Assembly: GCA_017405965.1 (NCBI GenBank)
Contig: JAFQZK010000003.1
Coordinates: 202,925 to 266,924 of the forward strand
Length of the DNA stretch: 64,000 bases
Reading direction: 5' to 3'
DNA from: Muribaculaceae bacterium
Lineage (GTDB): Bacteria > Bacteroidota > Bacteroidia > Bacteroidales > Muribaculaceae
In this document: positions 40,060 to 59,004 of the stretch, piece after piece
Layout: every line of letters starts with the position of its first letter
Numbering within the stretch: the stretch's first letter is position 1
Position numbers and translations under genes: made by a program
The notes under the pieces: generated by a model
What the model saw: the letters and a program-made list of their open reading frames with translations, nothing else
Database searches by the model: none
What the model was told of the DNA's origin: nothing

Positions 40060-40067
40060 TATCTTTG
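40060..40067 (+). promoter_or_regulatory. -7 box upstream of the first cobalamin riboswitch
   Basis: TATCTTTG at 40060-40067; a TTTG lies 17 bp upstream, slightly short spacing. Confidence 0.55.
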
Positions 40068-40077
40068 CAGCGAGATT

Positions 40078-40270
40078 TGGTGCCTGAGGGTGTTTCCTCG
40101 GGTGAAAAGGGAACCGGGTGAGAATCCCGGACAGACGGTGCTGCTGTGTGCTCCCGTTACTGATACCCCGCACCAGGCCACTGCGCGATTTTCCCGACAG
40201 CAAGGGACAGCGTGGGAAGGGCTGGTTGCAAACAATTGGGGTAGGGGCGAGTCAGAAGACCTGCCAAGTC
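40078..40270 (+). promoter_or_regulatory. Cobalamin riboswitch controlling btuB
   Basis: The leader has GGTGAAAAGGGAA, GGGTGAGAATCCC with ACAG, and the B12 box GTCAGAAGACCTGCC at 40251-40265, in the expected order and spacing of the adenosyl/methylcobalamin class. btuB starts 28 bases after the box, so translation is probably repressed when cobalamin is bound. Confidence 0.93.
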
Positions 40271-40292
40271 GCAAACATAGAAACCCGTGACA

Positions 40293-42377
40293 ATGCGTAA
40301 GACGTTACTGACAGCATTATTGGCTATAGTGTCTTTCCTGTGCGCCCATGCCCAGGAAGGTGTGCTTGCGCATCAGGCCGACTCGGTCATGGCGGCCGTG
40401 GGACACGGGCGCTTGGACTCGATGCAGTATATCCAGAACGTCATCATCTATGGCCGTCGTCCCTACGAGGACGTGATACCGGCTCAGGAGTTGACTGGCA
40501 AGCAGCTTGAGGGCCTCAACAGCCACTCGGTGGCCGATGCCGTGCGCTACTTTGCCGGTGTACAGCTCAAGGACTATGGTGGCGTGGGTGGCCTCAAGAC
40601 GGTGGATATCCGTTCGATGGGCACCAATCACATGGGTGTCTTCTACGACGGCATCCAAATCGGCAATGCCCAGAACGGCCAAGTGGATTTGGGTAAATTC
40701 TCGCTCGACAACCTCGAGGCGATTTCTCTCTACAACGGCCAGCGCAGCAACATCTTCCAGAGTGCCAAGGACTACGGTTCGGCCGGAACCATCTACCTGC
40801 GCACGCGCCGCCCCAAGTTCAAGGACGGCAAGCGTGACAACCTCAATGTGTCGTTCAAGACGGGCTCCTTTGGCCTCGTGAATCCCAGCGTGCGCTGGGA
40901 GCACAAGTTGAGCCGTGCCGTGAGTTTGTCGTTCAACAGCGAGTTCACCTATGCCACGGGCAAGTACCGCTTTCGCTACATGCGTCACTACAGCGACGGT
41001 TCGGTGGCGTGGGACACTACGGCCGTGCGCCAGAACGGCGAGGTGCGCTCCTATCGTGTCGAGGGAGCCGTTTTCGGCGTGATGTCAAGCGGCAAGTGGC
41101 ACGCCAAGGCTTACTGGTACGACAGCAGCAAGGGCATACCCGGTGCCATCGTCAACAACGTGTGGAAACATGCCCAGAAGCAGTGGGACACCAACTTTTT
41201 CCTTCAGGGGGCTTACCAGCGCAAGTTCACCGACCGCTACGAGATGATGTTCAACGCCAAGTATTCGCGTGACCGTCTGCACTACCTCAACCCCGACACC
41301 ACGTTGATGTACATCGACAACAAGTTCTGGCAGGACGAGATTTACCTCTCTACCGCCAATAAATACACCATCCTTACCGACTGGGATGTGAACCTCTCGT
41401 TGGATTACCAGTGGAACAGCCTGGATGCCACCCTGACGGGCTTCGGCTATCCTATCCGCCACACGGTGCTCACGGCCCTGGCAACGGCCTATACCTGGCA
41501 CGGATTCAAGGCCCAGGGCAGCCTGCTCTACACGATGGTCAACGACCGCTCGTCGGCTCGATTCAATGGTGAGGTGGTGGGCAAGACAAGCAAATACATG
41601 AACAAGGTCACGCCAGCCGTCTTCTTCAGTTGGCAGCCGTGGCATGAGCGCGAGTTCAACCTGCGTGCGTTCTACAAGCGCATCTTCCGCATGCCCACGT
41701 TCAACGACCTCTACTACACCGACATGGGCAACATCACGCTTGATCCCGAGTATGCCACCCAGTACAACGTCGGCTTCCTGTACCGTCTGCTCACCGATCA
41801 CGGTCTGCTTGCCGGTGTCAAACTCAGTGCCGACGCCTACTATAACTACATCACCGACAAAATCATCGCAGTGCCCAAGGGCACGGGCCAGTATCGCTGG
41901 ATGATGATGAACGTGGGCATCGTGAAAATCCGAGGCATTGACGTGAGCGCCCGCACGACCTTGCGGCTGCCCGCCGATGTCATTCTGGACATCAACTTGA
42001 GTTACACATACCAGAAGGCTCAGGACTACACCAATCCCGCCGACAATGGCGACGGAGGTACTTATAAGGGCCAACTGGCCTATATCCCTTGGCACAGTGG
42101 CTCGGTAGTCGGTCATCTGGGCTGGCACGACTTGGACGTGAACTACAGCTTCATCTACGTGGGCGAACGCTATCACACCAGCGCCAACACCCGCGAGAAC
42201 CATGAGCAGCCCTGGTATACCCACGACCTGTCGGCAGGCTATCTGCTTCACTTGGGCAAGACGACGTTAAAAATCTCGGGCGAGGTCAACAACCTCTTCA
42301 ACCAGTACTATGATGTCATCCTCAATTATCCCATGCCCGGCCGCAATTACAAACTCATCCTCAAATTCGACATCTGA
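40293..42377 (+). CDS. btuB: TonB-dependent cobalamin receptor BtuB
   Basis: 694 residues from ATG 40293 (MRKTLLTALLAIVSFLCAHA); a GTG six bases upstream is less likely. Plug domain: VADAVRYFAGVQLKDYGGVG, LKTVDIRSMGTNHMGVFYDG and IQIGNAQNGQVDLGKF. The C-terminal beta-barrel ends with the aromatic strand NYKLILKFDI. It imports cobalamin across the outer membrane with TonB energy. Substrate assignment rests on the riboswitch and the BtuG-like neighbour. Its stop overlaps the start of the next gene by one base. Confidence 0.92.
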   Translation: MRKTLLTALLAIVSFLCAHAQEGVLAHQADSVMAAVGHGRLDSMQYIQNVIIYGRRPYEDVIPAQELTGKQLEGLNSHSVADAVRYFAGVQLKDYGGVGGLKTVDIRSMGTNHMGVFYDGIQIGNAQNGQVDLGKFSLDNLEAISLYNGQRSNIFQSAKDYGSAGTIYLRTRRPKFKDGKRDNLNVSFKTGSFGLVNPSVRWEHKLSRAVSLSFNSEFTYATGKYRFRYMRHYSDGSVAWDTTAVRQNGEVRSYRVEGAVFGVMSSGKWHAKAYWYDSSKGIPGAIVNNVWKHAQKQWDTNFFLQGAYQRKFTDRYEMMFNAKYSRDRLHYLNPDTTLMYIDNKFWQDEIYLSTANKYTILTDWDVNLSLDYQWNSLDATLTGFGYPIRHTVLTALATAYTWHGFKAQGSLLYTMVNDRSSARFNGEVVGKTSKYMNKVTPAVFFSWQPWHEREFNLRAFYKRIFRMPTFNDLYYTDMGNITLDPEYATQYNVGFLYRLLTDHGLLAGVKLSADAYYNYITDKIIAVPKGTGQYRWMMMNVGIVKIRGIDVSARTTLRLPADVILDINLSYTYQKAQDYTNPADNGDGGTYKGQLAYIPWHSGSVVGHLGWHDLDVNYSFIYVGERYHTSANTRENHEQPWYTHDLSAGYLLHLGKTTLKISGEVNNLFNQYYDVILNYPMPGRNYKLILKFDI

Positions 42378-43543
42378 TGAATAAAATAAGGAAAATAAGG
42401 ACGGCTCTATTGATGGCATTTTTCCTCACCGTGATCCTGACGGGATGCCGTGAGGAAGTGACGATTTTCCTGCCGGAGCACGTGTCGGTGGCGCAGCCCG
42501 AGTTTACCGAAATCGAGGGCTTCTACCTGCTGTGTGAGGGCAATATGGGCTGGAACAAGGCCACGCTGGACTATTATGACTACGCCTATGGCGAGTACGT
42601 CCGCAACATCTTTTCCTATGCCAATCCCACGGTGCCCAAGGAGATGGGCGACGTGGGCAACGACATCGGCATCTATGGCAGCAACTTGTACTGTGTCATC
42701 AACTGCTCCAACAAGGTGGATGTGCTCGACAAGTACACCTGCAAGAAGAAATATCAGGTTAACATCCCCAACTGCCGTTTCATACGCTTCTACGGCGGCT
42801 ATGCCTATGTGACCAGCTATGCCGGCCCGGTGCAGATCAACCCTAACTACGAGCAGCGCGGCTATGTCGCCAAGATCGATACCGTGACCATGCAGGTCGT
42901 GGACACCTGTCTTGTGGGCTTCCAGCCCGACGAGCTGGAGATTGTCGAGGGCAAGATCTATGTCGCCAACTCGGGCGGCTATATGGTGCCCAACTACGAG
43001 AACACGGTGTCGGTCATCGATGTGGCGACTTTCAAGGAGGAGCGCCGCTTTCCCGTGGCCATCAACCTGTCATGGGTAAAGGGCGACCGTCACGGCATGC
43101 TCTGGATTGCCTCACGCGGCGACTATTATACCCGCCCGAGCAAGATATATGCCTATGACACGCGCAAGCAGCAACTCGTGGACAGCATCGACTGCCCCGT
43201 GAGCAACATGTGGCTCGACGGTGATTCCCTCTACGTGGTGAGCACCCAGTGGAGCTATGTGTCGATGAGCAACACGTTTGCCTATGCCGTCATCAACACC
43301 CAGACGCGGCAGAAGGTGAGTGACAATTTCATCACCGACGGCACCGACAAGGAGATCGTCATCCCCTATGCCGTCGCAGTCAATCCCATCACCAAGGACA
43401 TCTATGTCACCGATGCCAAGGACTACGTGTCACCCGGACGCCTGTATTGTTTCGACCGCTACGGTGTCAAGAAGTGGGATGTGCGCACCGGCGATATCCC
43501 TGCTCATTTCGCCTTCCTGGGCAACAACATCAACGAGAGATAA
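42377..43543 (+). CDS. btuG: BtuG-like surface lipoprotein, beta-propeller (DUF5074/YncE type)
   Basis: 388 residues. Lipoprotein signal with Cys24 (LTVILTGCREEV); the acidic residues after Cys resemble the Bacteroidota surface-export signal. The rest is a beta-propeller with repeats such as VGNDIGIYGSNLYCVINCSN, NKVDVLDKYTCKKKYQV and YVANSGGYMVPN. In Bacteroides the partner of BtuB in this position is BtuG, which binds cobalamin very tightly and hands it to BtuB. The one-base overlap with btuB supports a fixed complex. The gene symbol is by analogy. Confidence 0.85.
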   Translation: MNKIRKIRTALLMAFFLTVILTGCREEVTIFLPEHVSVAQPEFTEIEGFYLLCEGNMGWNKATLDYYDYAYGEYVRNIFSYANPTVPKEMGDVGNDIGIYGSNLYCVINCSNKVDVLDKYTCKKKYQVNIPNCRFIRFYGGYAYVTSYAGPVQINPNYEQRGYVAKIDTVTMQVVDTCLVGFQPDELEIVEGKIYVANSGGYMVPNYENTVSVIDVATFKEERRFPVAINLSWVKGDRHGMLWIASRGDYYTRPSKIYAYDTRKQQLVDSIDCPVSNMWLDGDSLYVVSTQWSYVSMSNTFAYAVINTQTRQKVSDNFITDGTDKEIVIPYAVAVNPITKDIYVTDAKDYVSPGRLYCFDRYGVKKWDVRTGDIPAHFAFLGNNINER

Positions 43544-43559
43544 TTAACACAATAGGATT

Positions 43560-44771
43560 ATGAAAATAATAAGAAGTATTGCAACGATCGTGTTGCTCAT
43601 GACGACTGCACTGACTATGTGGGCCAATCATCCGTGGCTCACGCGTGTTTACCAGTATCGGCCTGCTCCGGGGCAATTCGTCAACACCTTGCCGGTGGCG
43701 AGGGTGGGCGAGCCTGTCGATAGTGTGCTGGCGCGATGCCAAGCCAGCATCTGCGGCCGCATCGACACCGTTTCCAGCACTTTCCACGGGCAGATCATCA
43801 CCCGCATCGATACCGTGTGGGCCGAGAGCATGATCACCCTCGGCGGCTATGGCGGCTATGTCGTTGTGGGATTTGATCACCCCGTGGTCAATATGCATAC
43901 CTGGGACTTTGAAATCATGGGCAACGCCTTCTACAGTGACCAGACGTCGGCGGGTGGCAGTTGCGAGCCCGGTATCGTCATGGTGGGTGTTGATGCCGAC
44001 GGCGACGGCGTGCCCAGCGACGGCGACAAGTGGTATGAACTTGCGGGAAGTGAATATAGTCATCCCACGACTCAACACGATTATGCCATCACCTACTACC
44101 GTCCCGACGAGGCCAAGCCGCGCACACCCAGCACGACCGACCCGAGCCTGATCGACACCACCTACATCCGCTGGACCAGCAACGACGTCAACCCTGACAG
44201 CACCAGTGGCTACATGAGCCGCAACAGTTTCCACATGCAGCCCTATTGGCCCTTGTGGCTGCAGGACGAGGAAACCTTGGAATTCAACGGTGCCAAACTG
44301 CGCTGCAATGCCGAGGATATCGGCGGCACCGACGGCAATGCCTACTTTGTGCTGTACAATCTGCCGTGGGGCTATGTCGATAACCTGCCCAATCATCCCG
44401 GACGACAGCCTGGCGTTGAGGGTTATAACCCGGGTTTCAAGATTGACTGGGCCGTTGACGAGCAGGGACGCCACGTCAACCTCACCCACATCGATTTCGT
44501 TAAGGTCTATAATGCTGTGAATCAGTATTGCGGTTGGATAGGCGAGACCTCGACCGAGGTGGCAGGCGGCATCGATTATCATCCCGATGCCCCGATGCCT
44601 GCCGTCAACCCCGCTGACGTGAACATTGATGGCGAGGTCAACATCAGCGACGTGAATGCGGTGATCGACCTCATCCTGTCGGACGTGGTGGGTGCGACAG
44701 GTGATGTGAACCGCGACGGCGAGGTCAACATCAGTGACGTGAATGCATTGATTGACCTGATACTGCAATAA
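43560..44771 (+). CDS. B12-locus secreted surface protein with C-terminal dockerin
   Basis: 403 residues; signal peptide MKIIRSIATIVLLMTTALTM ending near MWA. Residues ~25-335 hold a conserved domain: PAPGQFVN, GGYGGYVVVGFDHPVVNMH, MGNAFYSDQTSAGGSCEPGI, DGDKWYELAGSEY, SFHMQPYWPLWLQDEETLEF and FKIDWAVDEQGRHVNLTHID. The same domain starts the protein at 55109, also under a cobalamin riboswitch, so it is a B12-locus family; it may correspond to BtuH-type cobalamin-binding proteins, but I cannot confirm this. The C-terminus is a dockerin (ADVNIDGEVNISDV, GDVNRDGEVNISDV). Third gene of the btuB operon, 16 bp after btuG. Confidence 0.82.
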   Translation: MKIIRSIATIVLLMTTALTMWANHPWLTRVYQYRPAPGQFVNTLPVARVGEPVDSVLARCQASICGRIDTVSSTFHGQIITRIDTVWAESMITLGGYGGYVVVGFDHPVVNMHTWDFEIMGNAFYSDQTSAGGSCEPGIVMVGVDADGDGVPSDGDKWYELAGSEYSHPTTQHDYAITYYRPDEAKPRTPSTTDPSLIDTTYIRWTSNDVNPDSTSGYMSRNSFHMQPYWPLWLQDEETLEFNGAKLRCNAEDIGGTDGNAYFVLYNLPWGYVDNLPNHPGRQPGVEGYNPGFKIDWAVDEQGRHVNLTHIDFVKVYNAVNQYCGWIGETSTEVAGGIDYHPDAPMPAVNPADVNIDGEVNISDVNAVIDLILSDVVGATGDVNRDGEVNISDVNALIDLILQ

Positions 44772-44857: not shown

Positions 44858-46942
44858 TTACATATTCAGAATCATGTCGATGATGGCGTTGACATCGGCG
44901 ATGTTGACTTCGCCGTCACCGTTCACGTCGGCCTCGGAAATTGATGAGTCGGTCAGAATCATGTCGATGATGGCATTGACATCGGCGATGTTCACCTCGC
45001 CGTCGCCGTTCACGTCACCCGTCAACGGGGCAGCGGGAGTGAGGTCCTCGATCATCATGCTGTTCACCAGCAACATGCCCATGTCATACTGCGAGCAGCA
45101 GCACAGCGCGATAAAGCTGGCAAATTTCTTGTTGTCGGTGCCATAGCCGTCGTCCTCGACCTTGAACGTGATGCTGTAGTCGCGGAACTCGCCGGGGTGC
45201 TTCACCGAGAAGGCCTCGTTTCCAAGGGGTGTGGCGCCCACCATGTCATAGCCGCTGAAGGTGTAGAAGCGGAAGCGTTCCTCGCGATAGCCGGCAATGT
45301 CATCGTTGCTCACGTTGGCCGTGATCTTGTACTCGTGGCCTTCCTGGAATTCGATGGGCGGCGAGATGATGAAGTCGTTGGCCGAGAATACTTCATTCTT
45401 CTGGTAGATGAAGAAGCACTTGTCACCTCCCTGGCCGAACATGTTCATGAAGTCCTTGTACCACACGAAGGGGTAGCCGTCCTCGTTAGCGTCGAGCACG
45501 GTCCAGAACTGGCCACTTTCCTCCCACGAGTTGAACGGGGCGACATAGGGGCACTTGACGGGCATGCCGTTCACCAGATCGTTGGTGGTGGCACTCAGGC
45601 CGGTGCCATCGGCGTTCTTGACATTGATCTGATAGGAATAGCGGGTCAGCTCATCGATGAGTTTGGTGTCGTTGAAGGTTGTGGCGGTGAGGTCCTGGGC
45701 AATGACCCTGTTGTCGTTCAGGCGCACGATGTCATAGGTAAGCGAACTCTGGTCCAGATAACCGCCGTGGGCGCCGGTCGTTGGCGCTGTCCATGACAGG
45801 TTGTTGACCAGCAGGGCCATGCGGTCGAGTGTGGCACGAGCATCGGTGACGGCAGCGGGCACGTCATGTCCAATCCAAGCCTCCACAGGTTGTTCCAGAC
45901 TGGCTCCGGCAGCATTGACGGCCGTGATGGTGAATTCATACATGCCAGCCTCATTTACCGTGACTGCAAGTCTCATGGGCTCGCCGGGCAGGCAGTCCTC
46001 AAGGACGGTTTTCTCGCCGGTGACCGTGTTGGCGATTTCGATGTTGATGGTGCCCTCGAGCGGTGAGCCGCTGTAGTCGTTCACGGGGTTGCACCACGTC
46101 AGCTGGGCTTCCAGGGCACCCTCCTCGTCGGCCGTGATGGTGGCATCGGTCACGCGTTGAGGCGCACTGCCGCTGGTCGGCTCGTAGGGGATGCCCAGGG
46201 CGATGACGTGAGAGCCGTCGCCGATGACGCCCACCATTGTGGCCGTGCCAGTGGTGGTGTCGATGGTGTACAGTGCGCTTTTCTCATTGCTGCCCCATAA
46301 AGCCAGATACAAGGTTCCGCTCTTGCGGTCAAATTCCATGCTCTGGAAGTTCCACCACGATGCCGGTGTCACCCCTGTCGAGCCGATGACCTCGGTGTCT
46401 CCGGTGCTCTTGTTCACTTTGAGCAGGTGACCGTTGTTGGCAAGTGCATACATCTGGCCGCGGGCATCGATAGCGATGGCCTTGCAGTAGTAGGGGAGAT
46501 TGCTGGTGAAAGTCATCGCGCCGTTCTCCAGGTTCACGGTACCGATGGCCGACACGCCGTCGATGTCCTCACTGTTGGCAATGAAATACATTGTGCTGGT
46601 CGAGTAGTCGTAGGAGAGGTCACCCGGACAGGTCGCGTCGCCCAGTTTCTTGATGGTTTCGCTTTCACCGGTCGTGGTGCTCATCTTGTAGAACCACATG
46701 TAGAAGTCGCCGTCGATGCCCATCATGTACAGCGTGCTGCCCACAAGAGCACCCGAGCGGGGCTCGGCCTTGGTGTAACCGCCCATGCGGGTCACTGCCG
46801 ACGGCTCATCGGTTGTGAAACTGATCATCGTCTGTGTGTTCGACGGCAACATGGTATAGCCGAAAGCTGTCTGTTGCGCCGATGCGCACAAGGCAGTGGA
46901 CGTCAAGGCCACAGCCAGCGCAAATTGAAAGAGTCTTTTCAT
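44858..46942 (-). CDS. Secreted multidomain protein: WD-like repeats, FN3-like, choice-of-anchor J, dockerin
   Basis: 694 residues; signal peptide MKRLFQFALAVALTSTALCA. Residues ~25-255 look like a beta-propeller (repeats such as VGSTLYMMGIDGDFYMWF, STSTMYFIANSEDI, GQMYALANNGHLLKVN). Then two fibronectin-III-like domains (~265-460), a choice-of-anchor J domain (~470-635: APFNSWEESGQFWTV, FIYQKNEVFSANDFIISPPI, CCCSQYDMGMLLVN), and a C-terminal dockerin (GDVNGDGEVNIADV, ADVNGDGEVNIADV). Exported, non-enzymatic by appearance. It lies convergent to the B12 operon and is likely an independent unit. Confidence 0.82.
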   Translation of the reverse strand: MKRLFQFALAVALTSTALCASAQQTAFGYTMLPSNTQTMISFTTDEPSAVTRMGGYTKAEPRSGALVGSTLYMMGIDGDFYMWFYKMSTTTGESETIKKLGDATCPGDLSYDYSTSTMYFIANSEDIDGVSAIGTVNLENGAMTFTSNLPYYCKAIAIDARGQMYALANNGHLLKVNKSTGDTEVIGSTGVTPASWWNFQSMEFDRKSGTLYLALWGSNEKSALYTIDTTTGTATMVGVIGDGSHVIALGIPYEPTSGSAPQRVTDATITADEEGALEAQLTWCNPVNDYSGSPLEGTINIEIANTVTGEKTVLEDCLPGEPMRLAVTVNEAGMYEFTITAVNAAGASLEQPVEAWIGHDVPAAVTDARATLDRMALLVNNLSWTAPTTGAHGGYLDQSSLTYDIVRLNDNRVIAQDLTATTFNDTKLIDELTRYSYQINVKNADGTGLSATTNDLVNGMPVKCPYVAPFNSWEESGQFWTVLDANEDGYPFVWYKDFMNMFGQGGDKCFFIYQKNEVFSANDFIISPPIEFQEGHEYKITANVSNDDIAGYREERFRFYTFSGYDMVGATPLGNEAFSVKHPGEFRDYSITFKVEDDGYGTDNKKFASFIALCCCSQYDMGMLLVNSMMIEDLTPAAPLTGDVNGDGEVNIADVNAIIDMILTDSSISEADVNGDGEVNIADVNAIIDMILNM

Positions 46943-47371: not shown

Positions 47372-48154
47372 ATGAAGAACAGCTTGAAACTCTTACTTGC
47401 TGCCTTGATGGGCTTTGCTATGTTTGTGCCTGCTCAGGCCGAGACCATGACGTTGACACTGTTTGACGTTGACACGATGCTGGTTGCAAATGAAAATGCT
47501 CCCATCACCTGCACCATGGTAGATACCGAGGGCTATACCTTGCAGACTATCTTCCCCGAGGCAGATCTTGCACCGATGCTGAATCAGGAGATTTACTCGA
47601 TGATGTTCTATCTGGATAGAGCAACGACGATCAACGGCGGTGAACTGGCCATTTCGGTCGGCACTACTGATGTGACGGCATTTCCCGGATGGAGTCCCCA
47701 GCCGATCACTGGTCTGACTCAAGTGTGCACTTACTCGTTTACTCCTGGTGATTCCGTAGTGCTGATCACTTTTGACACCCCCTTCGTCTATGAGGGTGGC
47801 AATCTCGTGTTTGAGTCCAAGGTCGTTACCGCAACTAATTGGGATGAAGGATGTTTCATTGGTATGATAGCTGATGTGAACAACGTGCTCATCAAGCGTG
47901 TTTATTCCTCAGCTGTTGACCGTTTCTATCCCATGACAACTTTCACCTATAGCGGTAATGCTCCTGTAGTGAATCCTGGTGATGTAGATGGCAACGGCTA
48001 TGTGAATGTAACCGACGTTACGATGCTCATCAATGCTGTGATGAGCAGCAACTATGGTGCTATTGTATTTGCTAATGCCGATATGGATGGTAACGGTGAT
48101 CTCACCGTGACCGATGTCACCATGCTGATCAATGCCGTTATTTCAGCACGATAA
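47372..48154 (+). CDS. Secreted protein, tandem-array paralogue 1, dockerin-ended
   Basis: 260 residues; signal peptide MKNSLKLLLAALMGFAMFVP ending AQAE. Residues ~25-190 are one copy of a ~170-residue domain: a DTEGYTLQTIFPEADLAPML start, a central GGELAISVGTTD, an ITFDTPFVYEGGNLVFES strand pair and a MTTFTY end. The C-terminus is a dockerin (GDVDGNGYVNVTDV, ADMDGNGDLTVTDV). It has its own promoter and terminator. The same domain recurs in the next two genes. Function unknown; a beta-rich extracellular module. Confidence 0.82.
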   Translation: MKNSLKLLLAALMGFAMFVPAQAETMTLTLFDVDTMLVANENAPITCTMVDTEGYTLQTIFPEADLAPMLNQEIYSMMFYLDRATTINGGELAISVGTTDVTAFPGWSPQPITGLTQVCTYSFTPGDSVVLITFDTPFVYEGGNLVFESKVVTATNWDEGCFIGMIADVNNVLIKRVYSSAVDRFYPMTTFTYSGNAPVVNPGDVDGNGYVNVTDVTMLINAVMSSNYGAIVFANADMDGNGDLTVTDVTMLINAVISAR

Positions 48155-48391: not shown

Positions 48392-49456
48392 ATGAAGAAA
48401 TTCTTTACTTTAATTGCTGTGGCCGTTCTGGCATTTGCTTCTCAGGCCAACGAGTTGACCGTTGGTGAAGGTCTGTCTTATTCCAACGTGAACCCCATCT
48501 GTGGCCTTTATGCTGACACCGAGGGTTGCTTGACCCAGACTGTTTATCCTGCAACCATGCTCACCGACATGGCTGGCGGCAACATCACTGCTGTTACGTT
48601 CTACACCCTGAACTGGTATTACGAGACCTATGGCGGCTTCACCAGTGATGATGAGACTGATTTCATCAACTTTGAAGATGCCAAGTTCCAGCTGGCTCTC
48701 AAGGAGGTTGACGAGAACGGTTTCACTGAGGTTGTTGCTTTTGTTGATGCTACCGCTGTTGCTACCTGCGTTCCCGAGTACGGTGACACCGAGGTTACAT
48801 TCGTTTTGGACCAGCCCTTCGCTTACACTGGCAAGAGCCTGGTCGTTGAGGTAACCTGCATCGAGGCCGGTAGTTGGGGTCAGACCTACTTCTTCGGTTC
48901 TGCCGCCGACGACTATTGCAGCTACTTCTACATTCCCGGTGGTGGTGAGGATGGCGAAGATGCTATTAACCTCACCAAGCACATGCCCATGGCTACCTTC
49001 AACTATGAGGAGGGTACGACCGTTGTTGTAGGCGCTCCCGTCTTCAATGGCTACACCATCGACGGTGTTACCGGTTACGGTGTTGATATCACCCCGACCA
49101 CCGAGGGCAGCGAGATCATGTACCGCGTCCTGGTTTGGGATGCTGTTGCCGAGGAGTGGGTTCTGAGGACTGACTGGACCCTGTACGGTGACACCGAGGG
49201 TGAGATCTGGTTCGAGAACAACGGTGAGAAGGTTCGCATCGAGGCTTATGCATTCATCGGTCAGAACAGGAGCGAGGACGTAGCTTATGAGTTCACCGTA
49301 GCTACCGCTCTCGACGAGCTCATGGGCAGCAAGACCGTTGCTGGCGTTCGCTACTTCAACATGGCTGGCCAGGAGATGCAGCAGGCCGAGGGTCTGACCA
49401 TCGTGGTTACCACCTACACCGACGGCACCACCAGCGCTGTTAAGGTTGTGAAGTAA
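48392..49456 (+). CDS. Secreted protein, tandem-array paralogue 2, T9SS-tail-ended
   Basis: 354 residues; signal peptide MKKFFTLIAVAVLAFASQAN. Residues ~22-210 are the same domain as in paralogue 1 (DTEGCLTQTVYPATMLTDMA, VTFVLDQPFAYTGKSLVVEV). Residues ~214-310 are an Ig-like domain (GAPVFNGYTIDGVTGYGVDI, WFENNGEKVRIEAYAFIGQN). The end, GSKTVAGVRYFNMAGQEMQQ then the GLTIVVTTYTDGTTS and VKVVK strands, is a T9SS type A sorting tail. The last 141 residues are ~91% identical to those of the protein at 57733. Codon use is tuf-like, suggesting high expression. Confidence 0.88.
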   Translation: MKKFFTLIAVAVLAFASQANELTVGEGLSYSNVNPICGLYADTEGCLTQTVYPATMLTDMAGGNITAVTFYTLNWYYETYGGFTSDDETDFINFEDAKFQLALKEVDENGFTEVVAFVDATAVATCVPEYGDTEVTFVLDQPFAYTGKSLVVEVTCIEAGSWGQTYFFGSAADDYCSYFYIPGGGEDGEDAINLTKHMPMATFNYEEGTTVVVGAPVFNGYTIDGVTGYGVDITPTTEGSEIMYRVLVWDAVAEEWVLRTDWTLYGDTEGEIWFENNGEKVRIEAYAFIGQNRSEDVAYEFTVATALDELMGSKTVAGVRYFNMAGQEMQQAEGLTIVVTTYTDGTTSAVKVVK

Positions 49457-49605: not shown

Positions 49606-51201
49606 ATGAACAAGATTTTCAAACTTATGTTTTCCGCGCTGCTGTTGGTATGCTGCGCGACTGTAGCTCATGCCGAGAACGCGATGACTGTCTTTGACGG
49701 CAACACGGTGTCGGTCTATGTTCCCCTGCCCACGGCCAGTTACAATGTGCAAGACACCAGGGGCCAGGTGATTTATCCGGCCGAAGCGCTTACTGCAATG
49801 GTTGGCCAGACGATCAACGGTTTTACCCTTTATGTCAACGATGAGGGCTGCAAGATGAACGGCGGTACCTTGCGCGTCTCGATGGGTGAAGTGGAGACCG
49901 CTACATTCTCCAGCAAGACATTTTTCAGCAATCTCGCTGTGGTCGCTCGGACCGAAATGCACGCTGGAGCATTCGAGGTGGATATCGACTTTGACACGCC
50001 CTACACCTACAATGGCGGTAATCTGGTCATCGATTTCTATGTCGAGCAGGCTGGCGAATCCGGTGCCTACAACTTTACCTATTTCTATGGTCTCTATCAG
50101 CAAGGTCACTCGGCCTTGACGACTGGCGACGAGGGTAACGAGTACCGTGAGTTCATCCCCAAGACCACATTCTACTATGGTGAGAAGGAGGCCGTTGCTG
50201 CACGCGTGAATCCCCGTGCTGTCAACTTCAACACGATCAGGGAAGGGGAAAGCGATGAGCAGACGGTTTATCTCAAGAATGCCGGCCTCACGGCTTTCAC
50301 ACCGGTTGTTACTGCTACGGCTCCGTTCAGTGCAGCTGTTCCCCAGACCGCTGTGGAACCTGGACAGACGGCCTTGGTTTCGGTAGTCTTTGAACCTGCT
50401 ACCGCCGGCTCGTTCGATGGCATGCTGCAGATTGATTGCGGTAATGGCGTTGTCCTCGAGATACCCATGACTGGTGAGGCTCTCGAGACCGGTGATGAAC
50501 TCACCGTGTGTGACGGTGGTGCCACCAACAATAAGCTGCCTTTCAACGGTGTTTATTTCAGTGATGCCGGTACCTATGGCCAGATGATTTATCCTGCCGC
50601 CATGCTCACCGAGATGGCAGGTCACAGGATTGTTGCCCTGTCGTTCTATACCAATAATCTCATCAACCTTAAGGACGGAACTGTGCAGCTTTCGCTCAAG
50701 ACCACCGACCAGACCGAGTTCACATCCACGGCTGCCATTACCGATATGACCGCTGTGGCCAGCATGCCGTTGGTCAAGGGTGTTGATGTGATCACCTTTG
50801 AGTTCGACACTCCGTTTGAGTACAATGGTGACAACCTCGTTGTTGAGGCTCGCATCATCGACAACAAGGGTAACTATGCCACGACAATGTTCCTGGGCGA
50901 GACGACCGAGAACTATGCCGGACTTTCGGTCACCCACTCGCAGTGGAGCGGTGACAATGCCGAGCGTGTGAAGTTCCTTCCCAAGGTGACATTCATCCAC
51001 CAGAAGGGTGCAGTGAATCACGGCGATGTTGACGGTAACGGCATCATTAACGTGACTGATGTCACCATGCTGATCACTGCATTGATGACCGAGAACTATT
51101 CGGCAATCAATGTTGCTAACGCCGATGTTGACGGCAACGGCTCGCTCAGCGTGACCGATGTCACCAACCTGATCGGTATCGTGATGGCAAGTTCAAAGTA
51201 A
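49606..51201 (+). CDS. Secreted protein, tandem-array paralogue 3 with two copies of the domain, dockerin-ended
   Basis: 531 residues; signal peptide MNKIFKLMFSALLLVCCATV ending AHAE. The ~170-residue array domain occurs twice: ~22-195 (DTRGQVIYPAEALTAMVGQ, YTYNGGNLVIDFYV) and ~310-475 (GQMIYPAAMLTEMAGHRIV, TPFEYNGDNLVVEA). Between them lies an ASH-like Ig domain (~205-300: VNPRAVNFNTIREGES to LEIPMTGEA). The C-terminus is a dockerin (GDVDGNGIINVTDV, ADVDGNGSLSVTDV). A TACCTTTG -7 box is at 49555-49562. Confidence 0.83.
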   Translation: MNKIFKLMFSALLLVCCATVAHAENAMTVFDGNTVSVYVPLPTASYNVQDTRGQVIYPAEALTAMVGQTINGFTLYVNDEGCKMNGGTLRVSMGEVETATFSSKTFFSNLAVVARTEMHAGAFEVDIDFDTPYTYNGGNLVIDFYVEQAGESGAYNFTYFYGLYQQGHSALTTGDEGNEYREFIPKTTFYYGEKEAVAARVNPRAVNFNTIREGESDEQTVYLKNAGLTAFTPVVTATAPFSAAVPQTAVEPGQTALVSVVFEPATAGSFDGMLQIDCGNGVVLEIPMTGEALETGDELTVCDGGATNNKLPFNGVYFSDAGTYGQMIYPAAMLTEMAGHRIVALSFYTNNLINLKDGTVQLSLKTTDQTEFTSTAAITDMTAVASMPLVKGVDVITFEFDTPFEYNGDNLVVEARIIDNKGNYATTMFLGETTENYAGLSVTHSQWSGDNAERVKFLPKVTFIHQKGAVNHGDVDGNGIINVTDVTMLITALMTENYSAINVANADVDGNGSLSVTDVTNLIGIVMASSK

Positions 51202-54706: not shown

Positions 54707-54736
54707 TTGTCATCTCAAATAATTGTTGTATCTTTG
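54707..54736 (+). promoter_or_regulatory. Promoter of the second cobalamin-riboswitch operon
   Basis: TTG (54707-54709) and TATCTTTG (54729-54736) are 19 bp apart. Confidence 0.75.
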
Positions 54737-54754
54737 CAGTAACAAATTGAACGT

Positions 54755-54970
54755 GTTGAGGTTCCCTGCCTGTTTTCGGGTAAGGGATGAAAAGGGAATC
54801 AGGTGAGAATCCTGGACAGTACCCGCTGCTGTAACTCCCTGACGATACATCGCGCGGCATCGTGCCACTGGTTGCAAACTCATGGTCTGCATCATCACCG
54901 GGAAGGCGCCGACGACGATGGGGGAGAAGTCAGAAGACCTGCCTCCGCACTGCCAAGCATTCGTGGTTCA
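54755..54970 (+). promoter_or_regulatory. Second cobalamin riboswitch
   Basis: The conserved parts occur in order: GATGAAAAGGGAATC, AGGTGAGAATCCT with ACAG, CCGCTGCTGTAACTCCC, and the B12 box GTCAGAAGACCTGCC (54929-54943). It differs in detail from the switch at 40078, so it is not a recent copy. No TonB receptor follows; it controls the fusion protein downstream. Confidence 0.93.
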
Positions 54971-55108: not shown

Positions 55109-57688
55109 ATGGACATGAGAAAACTTTTAGCTCTAGCATTAGTCTCTTTGATGGCTGCCACGATGGCGCAGGCCGTCAATTCGCCCTATATTGCCCGCGT
55201 CTATGACTTCATGCCCGCGCCGGGGCAGTTCGTGAATCAGAATCCGGCTTACCAGCCCGGAGACACGCGCGAGAGCATCAATGCCAAGGTGGAGGCCTCG
55301 TTGTGCGGAACAGTGAACGGCGGCCCCATCAGCTTGGGCAGCTACGGTGGCTACATCACATTCGGTTTCGACCATCCTGTTGTCAACAAGCATGGCTATG
55401 ACGTGAAGATCTACGGCAACGCTTTCCAGAGTGCTGCCGTGTCCGACATGGCTGGCGGCAGCTGCGAGCCCGGCATCATCATGGTGGGCGTTGACATGGA
55501 CGGTGACGGGGTGCCCAGTGCGGGAGACAAATGGTATGAAATCAAGGGTGCCGACTATGACCGTTGCCAGCACAACTTCGAAGTCACTTACTACAAGCCC
55601 GACGAGAACAAGGTAAAGGTGCCCCATGAGAGATGGAGGTTCATCAGCGATATTGAGTATGTCTATTGGATGAGCGACGATGTCACGATACCTGACGGCT
55701 ACGTGTGGCGCAACACGTTCCACACCCAGCCTTATTGGCCCTTGTGGATCGAAGACACGGTGCTCACTTTCAAGGGAACACGATTGCCCAACTTGTCTGT
55801 TGACATGAGCGCGAACGGGGCTGGCACCTCCTGGTTCCAACCGTTTTTCGGCGAGGGCTATGTGGATAACCTGCCCAATGATCAGGAGCCTGGCTTCAAG
55901 ATTGACTGGGCGATTGACGAGAGCGGTAACCCCGCTGAACTTGACCACATTGACTTCATCAAGGTGTATTGCGGTCAGCTTGACTACTGTGGCTGGCTGG
56001 GCGAGGTTTCGACCGAGGTGTGCGGTGCCGAGGATCTGCATCCCGATGCCGAGCCCGATGAGCCTGGTCCCGGACCTGACGATTTCACGTTCACCAACGG
56101 CATCATCTTCGTCAACGAGGACCGCTATGGTCCCAACCAGGGCTCCATCAACTACTACAACTATGACTACGACGAGATGGAGTATAACGTCTTTGCGATG
56201 GTGAATCCTGGCGTGAAGTTGGGCGTGACCACGCAATTCGGTCAGTTGTTCGGCGACCGCCTGTTCCTTGTCAGCAAGCAGGCCAACAGTAGCGAGGCCT
56301 CAGGCAGCACTGTGGGCTCGCGCCTGGCGGTGCTCGACGCTGTCACGCTCAAGCAGCAGGGCAGTGTGTTGCGTTTCCATGAATCCCCCGACAGCGTGTA
56401 TGACGGTCGTGCCTATTGCGCTGTTAACAACGATAAGGGCTACATTTCAACCAGTGGCGGCATCTTCGTCTTTGACGTGCCCTCGATGACCGTTCAGGGA
56501 ATGATCGACGGCACGCAGTCCAGTGCGACTGGTGATTACAACAGCCTGTACCGTGGCCAGTGCGGCGACATGGTGCGATTCGGCCAGTATGTGTTCGCTG
56601 TGCAGCAGGGCAGGGGACTTCATGTGATTGACCCGGTGACCGATGCCATAGTGACCACCTTGTCGTTCCCCAATATCGTGACCGTGTTCGTCACGGCTGG
56701 CGGCAACCTGTATGTGGCCAATAACTCGCGCGAGATCTATGACTACAGCGGCGGACCTTACGAGGCCAACTTCACTAGCATCGACCCTGTGACCTTCAGC
56801 GTGAAGGAGGTGCATGAACTCGGTGGTGCCTATGGCGCTGTGAGCTCGTGGGGCGCTTGGCGTGCACGCATGATCTGTGTGGATCCCCATGCCGAGCGGG
56901 TTTACTATAGCTATGATGAGTACCAGAACTACATCAGCTGCTATGACTTCGCGACGCGCACCTTCACCGATGCCCTCATCACGTTGCCCGATGGCGTGGA
57001 AATCAACTGGGACGGCACGGTAGAGCGTCAGGGCCTTTATTCATCGGCCATCAGCTTTGATCCTCACACAGGCGACATGGTGGTGCAGACGACCGAGGCG
57101 GCCCCCTTGTCTTATCAGAACTTCAACCACAACTGGGTGCTGTTCTATGATGCCAACACGCTGGGACTCAAGCGTCAGATACGATTGCAGGACGCTTATT
57201 GGTTCCCGGCAATGGCGGTTTATCCCGACGTGGAGGCTCCCACCGTGAGCATTGAGGAACAGGTCATCGGCGCTGGCCGCGAACAGGTCATCAGCCTGCT
57301 GGATGCCGTGAGCGATGCCGACAATATGTCGTCGCTGGCTGTGACCACTGCCGTGAGCGGCGATGAGAATGTTGTGCGTGCCACCGTGAGCGGTCTGGAA
57401 CTGCATCTCGTTGGTTTGACGCCGGGCCGGACGACTGTCAATGTCACCACCGACAGCAATGGCCGATTGGCAAGCACGTCATTCACTGTGACGGTCACCA
57501 ATGTCTCGATTCCTGGCGACGTGAATATGGATGGTGAAGTGAACATCTCAGATGTTACCCGTCTGATTACCGTTATCATGGGCTCAGTTTTGTGTGACTA
57601 TGACCCGGCAGCAGCCGACTTCAATGGTGATCACACCATCAATATCACCGATGCCGTGATGCTGATAAATTGGATTATGAACAATTGA
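55109..57688 (+). CDS. Fusion of B12-locus surface domain, BtuG-like propeller, Ig-like domain and dockerin
   Basis: 859 residues from ATG 55109 (MDMRKLLALALVSLMAATMA); ATGs at 55103 and 55115 are alternatives, while the open frame extends to 55046. Residues ~20-310 repeat the domain of the protein at 43560 (PAPGQFVN, GSYGGYITFGFDHPVVNKHG, PYWPLWIEDTVLTFKG, GYVDNLPNDQEPGFKIDWAI). Residues ~325-715 are a DUF5074/YncE-type beta-propeller like BtuG (GSINYYNYDYDEMEYNVFAM, LYVANNSREIYDYSGG). An Ig-like domain (~720-800) and a dockerin (GDVNMDGEVNISDV, ADFNGDHTINITDA) follow. So two proteins of the first operon are joined here. There is a Sec signal but no lipobox. Cobalamin capture at the surface is a strong inference. 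Confidence 0.85.
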   Translation: MDMRKLLALALVSLMAATMAQAVNSPYIARVYDFMPAPGQFVNQNPAYQPGDTRESINAKVEASLCGTVNGGPISLGSYGGYITFGFDHPVVNKHGYDVKIYGNAFQSAAVSDMAGGSCEPGIIMVGVDMDGDGVPSAGDKWYEIKGADYDRCQHNFEVTYYKPDENKVKVPHERWRFISDIEYVYWMSDDVTIPDGYVWRNTFHTQPYWPLWIEDTVLTFKGTRLPNLSVDMSANGAGTSWFQPFFGEGYVDNLPNDQEPGFKIDWAIDESGNPAELDHIDFIKVYCGQLDYCGWLGEVSTEVCGAEDLHPDAEPDEPGPGPDDFTFTNGIIFVNEDRYGPNQGSINYYNYDYDEMEYNVFAMVNPGVKLGVTTQFGQLFGDRLFLVSKQANSSEASGSTVGSRLAVLDAVTLKQQGSVLRFHESPDSVYDGRAYCAVNNDKGYISTSGGIFVFDVPSMTVQGMIDGTQSSATGDYNSLYRGQCGDMVRFGQYVFAVQQGRGLHVIDPVTDAIVTTLSFPNIVTVFVTAGGNLYVANNSREIYDYSGGPYEANFTSIDPVTFSVKEVHELGGAYGAVSSWGAWRARMICVDPHAERVYYSYDEYQNYISCYDFATRTFTDALITLPDGVEINWDGTVERQGLYSSAISFDPHTGDMVVQTTEAAPLSYQNFNHNWVLFYDANTLGLKRQIRLQDAYWFPAMAVYPDVEAPTVSIEEQVIGAGREQVISLLDAVSDADNMSSLAVTTAVSGDENVVRATVSGLELHLVGLTPGRTTVNVTTDSNGRLASTSFTVTVTNVSIPGDVNMDGEVNISDVTRLITVIMGSVLCDYDPAAADFNGDHTINITDAVMLINWIMNN

Positions 57689-57732: not shown

Positions 57733-59004
57733 ATGAAGAAATTATTTACTTTAGCAGCATGTGCCCTGATGGCTTCGGCCGCTTGGGCTGGCGTGGTTAC
57801 GCTTGACATGAACAATCCGTTGAATCCCACCACCATCGAGTACGGCGACAACGGTGTTTGGACCCAGTGCTACAACGATGTGGACTACACTTGGTTGGAA
57901 TTCGGCAACGACAAGGGTACCTTTATGCTCTCACACCTTATCGATGGTGAGGGTGCTTCGTGGGGCGGTTATTATTGGGACGGTTTCACCCCTGCCATCG
58001 GTGGTGACCAGAACGACTACGGCCAGGCTGGTAGCAGCGCTGGCTGGACCACTATGTTTGGCGGCTGTATGGCTGGTGGCGGTTGCGTCATCAATGCCGA
58101 CGGTAGCGTGTCTGCCGATCCCGCTGAGCCCTATTTCGTAGCATACTACAGCAGCTGGGCTTATGAGGGACCGAGTAATCAGGTGATGTTTGTTGACAAT
58201 GACGGCAACTCGACGTTCGAGCCTGCTGGCGTATATATCTGCAACCACCCCTGGCCCTATTATGGCTGTGAGCATGGTGATGGCTTCGGCACCGGCTTTG
58301 CCGAGGGTGACTACTTCGAGCTGATTGCCCATGGCGTTGCTGCCGATGGTAGCGAGAAGACCATCAGCATCAACCTGATTGAGTTTACCGATGGCCAACT
58401 CATCGCCCTCAACGATTGGACCTACTTTGACCTGTCAGAACTTGGCGAGGTTGAGTCTGTTTTCTTCACCATGAATTCTACCGATGTAGGCCCTTACGGA
58501 ATGAACACCGCTGCCTACTTCTGCATGGACAAGTTCCAGGTGAAGGTTGCTGATGATCCTGTTGAGCCCGTTACTGTTGGCGCTCCCGTATTCCAGGGTT
58601 ACACCATCGACGGTATCACCGGTTACGGTGTGGGCATCACCCCGACTACCGAGGGCAGCGAGATCATGTACCGCGTCCTGATCTGGGATCCCGTTGCCGA
58701 GGAGTGGGTTCTGAGGACCGACTGGACCCTGTATGAGGGCACCGAGGGTGAGATCTGGTTCGAGAACAACGGTGAGAAGGTTCGCATCGAGGCTTATGCC
58801 TTCATCGGTCAGAACGTGAGCATGGATGTAGCTTATGAGTTCACTGTAGCTACCGCTCTCGATGAGCTCATGAGTGGCAAGACCGTTGCCGGCGTTCGCT
58901 ACTTCAACATGGCTGGCCAGGAGATGCAGCAGGCCGAGGGTCTGACCATCGTGGTCACCACCTACACCGACGGCACCACCAGCGCTGCCAAGGTCATCAA
59001 GTGA
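57733..59004 (+). CDS. DUF4465-like secreted protein with T9SS tail
   Basis: 423 residues; signal peptide MKKLFTLAACALMASAAWAG. Residues ~20-275 fit DUF4465: YTWLEFGNDKGTFMLSHLID, GGYYWDGFTPAIGGDQNDYG, FVAYYSSWAYEGPSNQVMFV, YFELIAHGVAADGSEKTISI. From ~283 it shares the Ig-like plus sorting-tail block (141 residues, ~91% identical) with the protein at 48392, ending GKTVAGVRYFNMAGQEMQ, then the GLTIVVTTYTDG strand. It follows the fusion gene by 44 bp, so it is probably in the same riboswitch operon. DUF4465 proteins recur near B12 uptake genes, from memory. Codon use is tuf-like. Confidence 0.85.
   Translation: MKKLFTLAACALMASAAWAGVVTLDMNNPLNPTTIEYGDNGVWTQCYNDVDYTWLEFGNDKGTFMLSHLIDGEGASWGGYYWDGFTPAIGGDQNDYGQAGSSAGWTTMFGGCMAGGGCVINADGSVSADPAEPYFVAYYSSWAYEGPSNQVMFVDNDGNSTFEPAGVYICNHPWPYYGCEHGDGFGTGFAEGDYFELIAHGVAADGSEKTISINLIEFTDGQLIALNDWTYFDLSELGEVESVFFTMNSTDVGPYGMNTAAYFCMDKFQVKVADDPVEPVTVGAPVFQGYTIDGITGYGVGITPTTEGSEIMYRVLIWDPVAEEWVLRTDWTLYEGTEGEIWFENNGEKVRIEAYAFIGQNVSMDVAYEFTVATALDELMSGKTVAGVRYFNMAGQEMQQAEGLTIVVTTYTDGTTSAAKVIK

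Follow-up and report, generated by a model that had tools for sequence, protein, structure and literature searches.

The 64,000-nucleotide stretch analysed here (the window), from a Muribaculaceae bacterium (GenBank assembly GCA_017405965.1, contig JAFQZK010000003.1, positions 202,925–266,924 of the forward strand), contains a gene in which two types of B12-locus protein, a BtuH domain and a BtuK-type beta-propeller, are joined in a single frame and followed by a spacer and a dockerin (Table 1). This fusion is a real, conserved and riboswitch-controlled gene, the assignment of its control, export and family membership being based on sequence. Its apparent signal peptide (recognized by eye in the translation, not by a predictor) has no cysteine near it, and the protein bears neither a lipobox nor a C-terminal sorting tag. 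The spacer is common to fused and split relatives (in the latter the two parts are separate adjacent genes), and gave a weak, sub-cut-off Big_2 match in one split relative. The initial annotation stands in part: it had described two B12-locus proteins fused under a riboswitch of their own, with neither a lipobox nor a receptor in the unit (btuB occurs only in a separate operon, 40061–44771, about 13 kb away), and had seen that the N-terminal domain is homologous to the third gene of that operon (both match the BtuH structure 8BLW).

Table 1. Features of the fusion unit and of the btuB operon (positions in the window)
Feature	Position	Strand	Details
Cobalamin riboswitch, btuB operon	40061..40282	+	84.9 bits
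btuB, TonB-dependent B12 receptor	40287..42377	+	TIGR01779 E 7e-32, under its cut-off; Plug domain
btuG, lipoprotein propeller	42377..43543	+	8PTF and 8PTD E 9e-36; PF16819 38.9 bits; lipobox LTGC
btuH with C-terminal dockerin, without lipobox	43560..44771	+	8BLW E 1e-54; PF00404 27.1 bits
Promoter-like element, Bacteroidota type	54707..54736	+	TTG 54707-54709, 19 nt, TATCTTTG 54729-54736
Cobalamin riboswitch RF00174, full length	54742..54960	+	101.5 bits, model positions 1-189 of 189; above gathering score
btuH-btuK-dockerin fusion gene	55109..57688	+	859 codons from 55109; alternative start 55103 or 55115
Type I signal peptide, without lipobox cysteine	55109..55174	+	ends ...MAQA; translation read by eye
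BtuH B12-binding domain	55181..56041	+	residues 25-311; PDB matches 8BLW E 1e-51, 7BIZ E 8e-39
Short linker	56042..56077	+	split relatives have a dockerin, stop codon and second signal peptide at the same place
BtuK-type beta-propeller (PF16819/DUF5074)	56096..57226	+	residues 330-706
All-beta spacer domain, probably Ig-like	57242..57499	+	predicted local distance difference test (pLDDT) 94-98 per block for strands
Type I dockerin	57512..57673	+	residues 802-855; PF00404 42.3 bits, E 8.5e-11, cut-off 22.9; PDB dockerins also matched
btuJ-type gene, DUF4465 family	57733..59004	+	PF14717 E 3.7e-33, 115.8 bits, cut-off 25; C-terminal tag 58804-59001

The locus was found in 38 of 101 genomes of the genus, as a fusion in 24 (including one truncated copy that spans the junction, G454, excluded from the tree described below) and as two adjacent genes in 14. 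When 37 loci were read directly (23 fused, 14 split), every one of them had a DUF4465 frame alongside, and the propeller gene carried a dockerin each time. The fusion gene has no receptor in its unit but does not stand alone, a BtuJ-type gene being adjacent in 37/37 loci, this one included. Likewise, the suggestion that fusion fixes the ratio of the two proteins is weakened, as a requirement, by the 14 of the 38 locus-bearing genomes that keep separate genes. Riboswitches and promoters were scanned in 17 of the 37 fused or split loci: a cobalamin riboswitch stands upstream of all 10 fused loci (again counting this one) and all seven split loci, and also of all six stand-alone BtuK-type loci of the genus (in one case with another frame between). 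In 17/17 of the fused or split loci, the motif TAnnTTTG, which we take to be the Bacteroidota promoter consensus, starts 10–13 nucleotides (nt) 5' of the riboswitch (expected per site 0.005, from its density in the window); none was found 5' of the one btuB-operon riboswitch checked. Pattern scans for sigma-70-type promoters and for terminators gave no excess over shuffled sequences; they showed one promoter-like match, and no terminator-like site, in the 44 nt between the fusion and the btuJ-type gene.

By whole-domain homology, the N-terminal part belongs to the BtuH family. Published work is cited here by PubMed Central number. The residues reported to contact B12 in BtuH2 (Q333, N399, F401, H476, Y510, W511, W577 and L578; PMC8941943) are identical in the fusion at seven of the eight positions, Y510 being replaced by serine; Q333, N399, W511, W577 and L578 are kept in all 17 genus loci compared, and H476 in 16.

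For the propeller, which had been thought to resemble BtuG, the nearest relative in both fold and sequence is instead BtuK1 (9S6C) of Bacteroides thetaiotaomicron (B. theta), at 23% identity over the aligned part; the predicted fold covers only the propeller and spacer, and the comparison is good only for model residues 1–389. (A first alignment of the whole fusion was discarded, because the propeller rows fell partly on the BtuH part.) The closest named relative of 9S6C, 79% identical and from B. faecis (L063), heads a row K-K-H-B-GH-J, which is the published gene order in B. theta (PMC12751083). Of the 26 columns that are conserved across 97 aligned BtuK-type rows, BtuK1 among them, the fusion propeller keeps 18 and BtuK1 itself 19, but two genes in the BtuK2 position (gapped in the loop discussed below) only 10. 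The propeller also sits in a B12 locus, with its riboswitch, fused btuH and adjacent btuJ. In a pattern scan for BtuK across Bacteroidota, the fetched stretch contains btuB, btuG or btuH in 62 of the 80 loci kept; seven of the remaining 18 are preceded, within 1 kb, by a cobalamin riboswitch, which is weak in two cases. That the propeller might be a BtuG after all, making the fusion a second BtuGH-like protein (see below), is already disfavoured and seems very improbable: the features of a BtuG-family protein that were looked for, a lipobox and a btuB in the same unit, are both absent. The organism's own BtuG, though, scores above the PF16819 cut-off (38.9 vs 27.2 bits), so the Pfam label alone cannot separate BtuK from BtuG.

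The PDB matches of the downstream gene product include 9FCT, 9I2L and 9HMU, the first two being BtuJ1/BtuJ2 of the DUF4465 family, in which B12 binding has been reported for eight distantly related members (PMC13398666). The BtuJ proteins of B. theta are lipoproteins found on vesicles; this one bears a C-terminal tag instead. The tag has 34 matches in the genome, which also encodes the type IX protein SprA, and from these facts and its position it may be a sorting tag; the Pfam type IX tag PF18962 has only four matches in the genome, one of them over the cut-off, which counts against a type IX reading. (Elsewhere, at G000 C35:28226–29599, there is a second SprA-like match, which is incomplete and contains a single in-frame TGA.) Could the locus serve some other corrinoid or a tetrapyrrole precursor? 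The organism does have genes for corrinoid intermediates, but the cobalamin riboswitch, and the fact that each of the three protein families has homologues that bind B12, make this the least probable of the alternatives considered. In B. theta, BtuH, BtuG, BtuGH, BtuJ and BtuK1 all bind cobalamin (PMC12751083).

The coexistence of fused and split forms calls for some account of their history. In the seven split loci whose junction was read (by eye), the BtuH gene ends in a dockerin of its own and a separate signal peptide opens the propeller gene, and split btuH and btuK genes overlap or stand within about 15 nt of each other; in all nine fused relatives, the internal dockerin and second signal peptide are gone and the domains are joined by a linker of eight or nine residues. 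A single fusion event was rejected, since the 37 loci need three changes between fused and split states and the BtuH and BtuK trees conflict. Three changes are nevertheless far fewer than with shuffled labels (mean 11.5, minimum 7 in 2000 shuffles), and in a tree of 17 loci one branch, with support 87, parts split from fused; no such separation is seen in the BtuJ, NrdD and TopA trees. Between L039 and L049, a fused and a split locus, identity is 92–99% in nrdD, 81–85% in nrdG and the riboswitch, 71–81% in btuH and most of btuK, 84–88% at the end of btuK and 95–97% at the start of btuJ, and then lower; the two alleles have surroundings that are nearly the same on the nrdD and the btuJ side, and it looks as though the intervening segment had been swapped. 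The pattern is most simply explained by recombination that exchanges alleles, with repeated fusion or fission as a less simple alternative. Separate genes were found in the other genera opened, but with a long outgroup branch and a poorly supported root the tree does not fix the direction, fusion or fission. A search for other such fusions had been proposed; it found them in relatives within the genus and none outside it. Three candidates from other genera (G349, G202 and G218), drawn from 393 genomes of the order with at most two candidates scored per listed row and frames read through stops, each proved to be two separate genes once opened, and there was none among the 80 loci of the Bacteroidota scan. 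So far, then, the BtuH–BtuK fusion has been seen only in this genus.

We propose, with a probability of about 0.72, that the fusion is a B12-repressed secreted capture protein, with BtuH and BtuK modules on one chain, that feeds the BtuB–BtuG receptor and is held at the surface by its dockerin. When cobalamin is scarce, the riboswitch would permit expression of the unit, and the fusion would be exported by means of its type I signal peptide and a presumed outer-membrane route, along with the BtuJ-type protein; the two modules would then capture cobamides outside the cell and hand them to the BtuB–BtuG receptor of the separate operon, while the dockerin most likely anchors the protein on cell-surface cohesin-like proteins, in place of the lipid anchor or sorting tag of its relatives. 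In the published model, BtuJ and BtuG hold B12 with its lower ligand out and BtuH holds it with the lower ligand in, so that BtuH, gripping the vitamin the opposite way, can pass it on (PMC12751083). Coupling BtuH to a BtuK on one chain would be compatible with this model.

Several observations weigh against this proposal, bearing first on binding and then on attachment. In the BtuH domain, Y510 is replaced in all 17 genus loci and F401 is retained in only four. Compared with five of the nine fused relatives, the ratio of nonsynonymous to synonymous substitution rates (dN/dS) is 0.05–0.12 for the BtuH and propeller domains together, and 0.06–0.11 for the propeller by itself; this indicates purifying selection on both B12 domains and speaks for the proposal, but dS is near saturation in these comparisons, and the spacer–dockerin region has 0.19–0.34 in four of the five pairs (the other being undefined), which implies looser constraint. 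The locus is also far from universal: at an E value of 1e-110, a match is missing from 63 of the 101 genus genomes, and of the 48 better genomes 24 contain it. Nor is the need to scavenge obvious, since the genome has some B12 biosynthesis genes: a third cobalamin riboswitch (G000 C22:8866–17366, L152) heads two TonB receptors and genes for CbiK, CobJ/precorrin-8X methylmutase and CbiE–CbiT. Finally, a near-invariant loop of the propeller is changed, W339 to R and H342 to P (R339 in 16/16 relatives, P342 in 15/16 with A in the other), and BtuK2 of B. theta, though it resembles BtuK1, does not bind cobalamin (PMC12751083). From these last two facts, one might suppose that B12 binding is confined to the BtuH part, the propeller having lost it as BtuK2 has and serving as a spacer or as a contact surface for BtuBG or BtuJ. 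We think this unlikely, as the propeller keeps nearly as many of the conserved columns as BtuK1, in contrast to the genes in the BtuK2 position, and has a low dN/dS.

As to attachment, the dockerin noted in the initial annotation is present, but such domains are not confined to B12 proteins: with 150 of 322 candidates scored, at least 153 dockerin matches were counted in the genome, and the operon BtuH carries one too. In this genome, no cohesin exceeds the Pfam cut-off (five fall below it), and a cohesin-like profile built here has 15 matches in it, eight of the 17 rows of that profile coming from the same genome. The notion that no cohesin partner exists was nevertheless dropped, given these matches, the cohesins over the cut-off in 19 of 41 genus genomes, and the five best PDB matches of the profile (E 3e-5 to 0.17), each of which is a cohesin or a cellulosomal scaffold protein; the cohesin-like domains of this genome are divergent. 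Besides their cohesin-like domain, three proteins bear a dockerin and the C-terminal tag, and four of the cohesin-like proteins have another cohesin–dockerin frame nearby; this anatomy would be in keeping with a surface scaffold. The four pairs (G000 C31:105811–107757, C21:193478–195356, C4:21294–23097 and C37:38575–41378) each comprise a cohesin-like protein with an internal dockerin, the C-terminal tag being found in three of the four, adjoining a cohesin–dockerin frame (221, 225, 235 and 658 aa). We also draw attention to a scaffoldin-like protein in a relative (G011:C1, L165:1744–4485), in which six cohesin-like domains, recognized by eye, follow one another in tandem and a dockerin forms the C-terminus.

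A freely released protein, which the initial annotation named beside a scaffold-bound one, that binds B12 at a distance, to be taken over later by BtuBG, with the dockerin as a general secretion or stability tag, is a somewhat unlikely alternative to surface attachment. The missing lipobox and sorting tag would suit it, as would the excess of dockerin matches over the 15 cohesin-like ones and the precedent of the vesicle-borne BtuJ of B. theta, proposed to act like a siderophore (PMC12751083); against it, cohesin-like domains do exist, three of their proteins with a sorting tag, and relatives in other genera have either a sorting tag in the position occupied here by the dockerin or an N-terminal lipobox-like pattern. 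Among 99 BtuK-type propeller proteins, 41 matched a crude lipobox pattern, so the anchor is not family-wide; many of the other 58 end in a sorting-tag-like tail (by eye), which is Pfam DUF6383 in one (L146) and has no Pfam match in another (L112). Extending the attachment reading, it is a tentative and rather doubtful idea that dockerin-tagged catchers (the BtuH–BtuK fusion and the operon BtuH) plug into tag-held cohesin-like proteins in a cellulosome-like assembly for vitamin capture, the dockerin replacing a lipid anchor or sorting tag, with recombination moving fused and split versions from species to species. The window also encodes, in the interval from the btuB operon to nrdD, a run of uncharacterized secreted proteins (44858–46942 on the minus strand, 47372–48154, 48392–49456 and 49606–51201), of which three have a dockerin at the end and one has the C-terminal tag.

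The closest known counterpart is BtuGH of B. theta (BT_1490, formerly BtuG1; 8BLW), which likewise has a B12 propeller and a BtuH domain on one chain, encoded in a riboswitch-controlled B12 locus, and either half of which binds cobalamin alone (PMC12751083). In BtuGH, however, the propeller comes first, is of the BtuG type seated on BtuB1, and belongs to a lipoprotein for which no dockerin is described, whereas here BtuH precedes a BtuK-type propeller, with a dockerin and without a lipobox. BtuK1 (BT_1486) is a stand-alone lipoprotein, and BtuH2 (BT_1956, 7BIZ), with the same B12-binding domain, is a lipoprotein with PKD domains in front and no propeller. In rumen Bacteroidetes, dockerins have been reported also on enzymes that have no tie to fibre degradation (PMC6071333). 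In the literature searched, with thin coverage of subscription papers, no dockerin was found on a B12-binding protein: in the one paper that combined dockerin, BtuB and cobalamin the dockerins were adhesins, and the papers listed for BtuH did not mention a dockerin. BtuHK gave no match, 9S6C only an unrelated plant paper and DUF5074 only a study of outer-membrane vesicles. Since the BtuGH fusion is already published (PMC12751083, PMC10404256), the idea of a fused B12 catcher is known; as far as our searches went, the BtuH–BtuK pairing, the domain order and the dockerin are new.

The wider interest lies in uncharacterized PF16819/DUF5074 propellers, now tied to BtuK and B12 uptake by their fold and sequence and, across Bacteroidota, by riboswitches and neighbouring genes; their genes were noted near DUF4465 genes in 2026, and were not called BtuK in the passages available (PMC13398666). 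A natural fusion of BtuH and BtuK beside split versions suggests that the two act side by side, and the published model for hand-over from capture proteins to BtuBG itself cites the BtuGH fusion (PMC12751083). The fusion unit looks like an outlying arm of the B12 uptake system, and if attachment through the dockerin is true, cohesin–dockerin assembly would be extended to vitamin capture.
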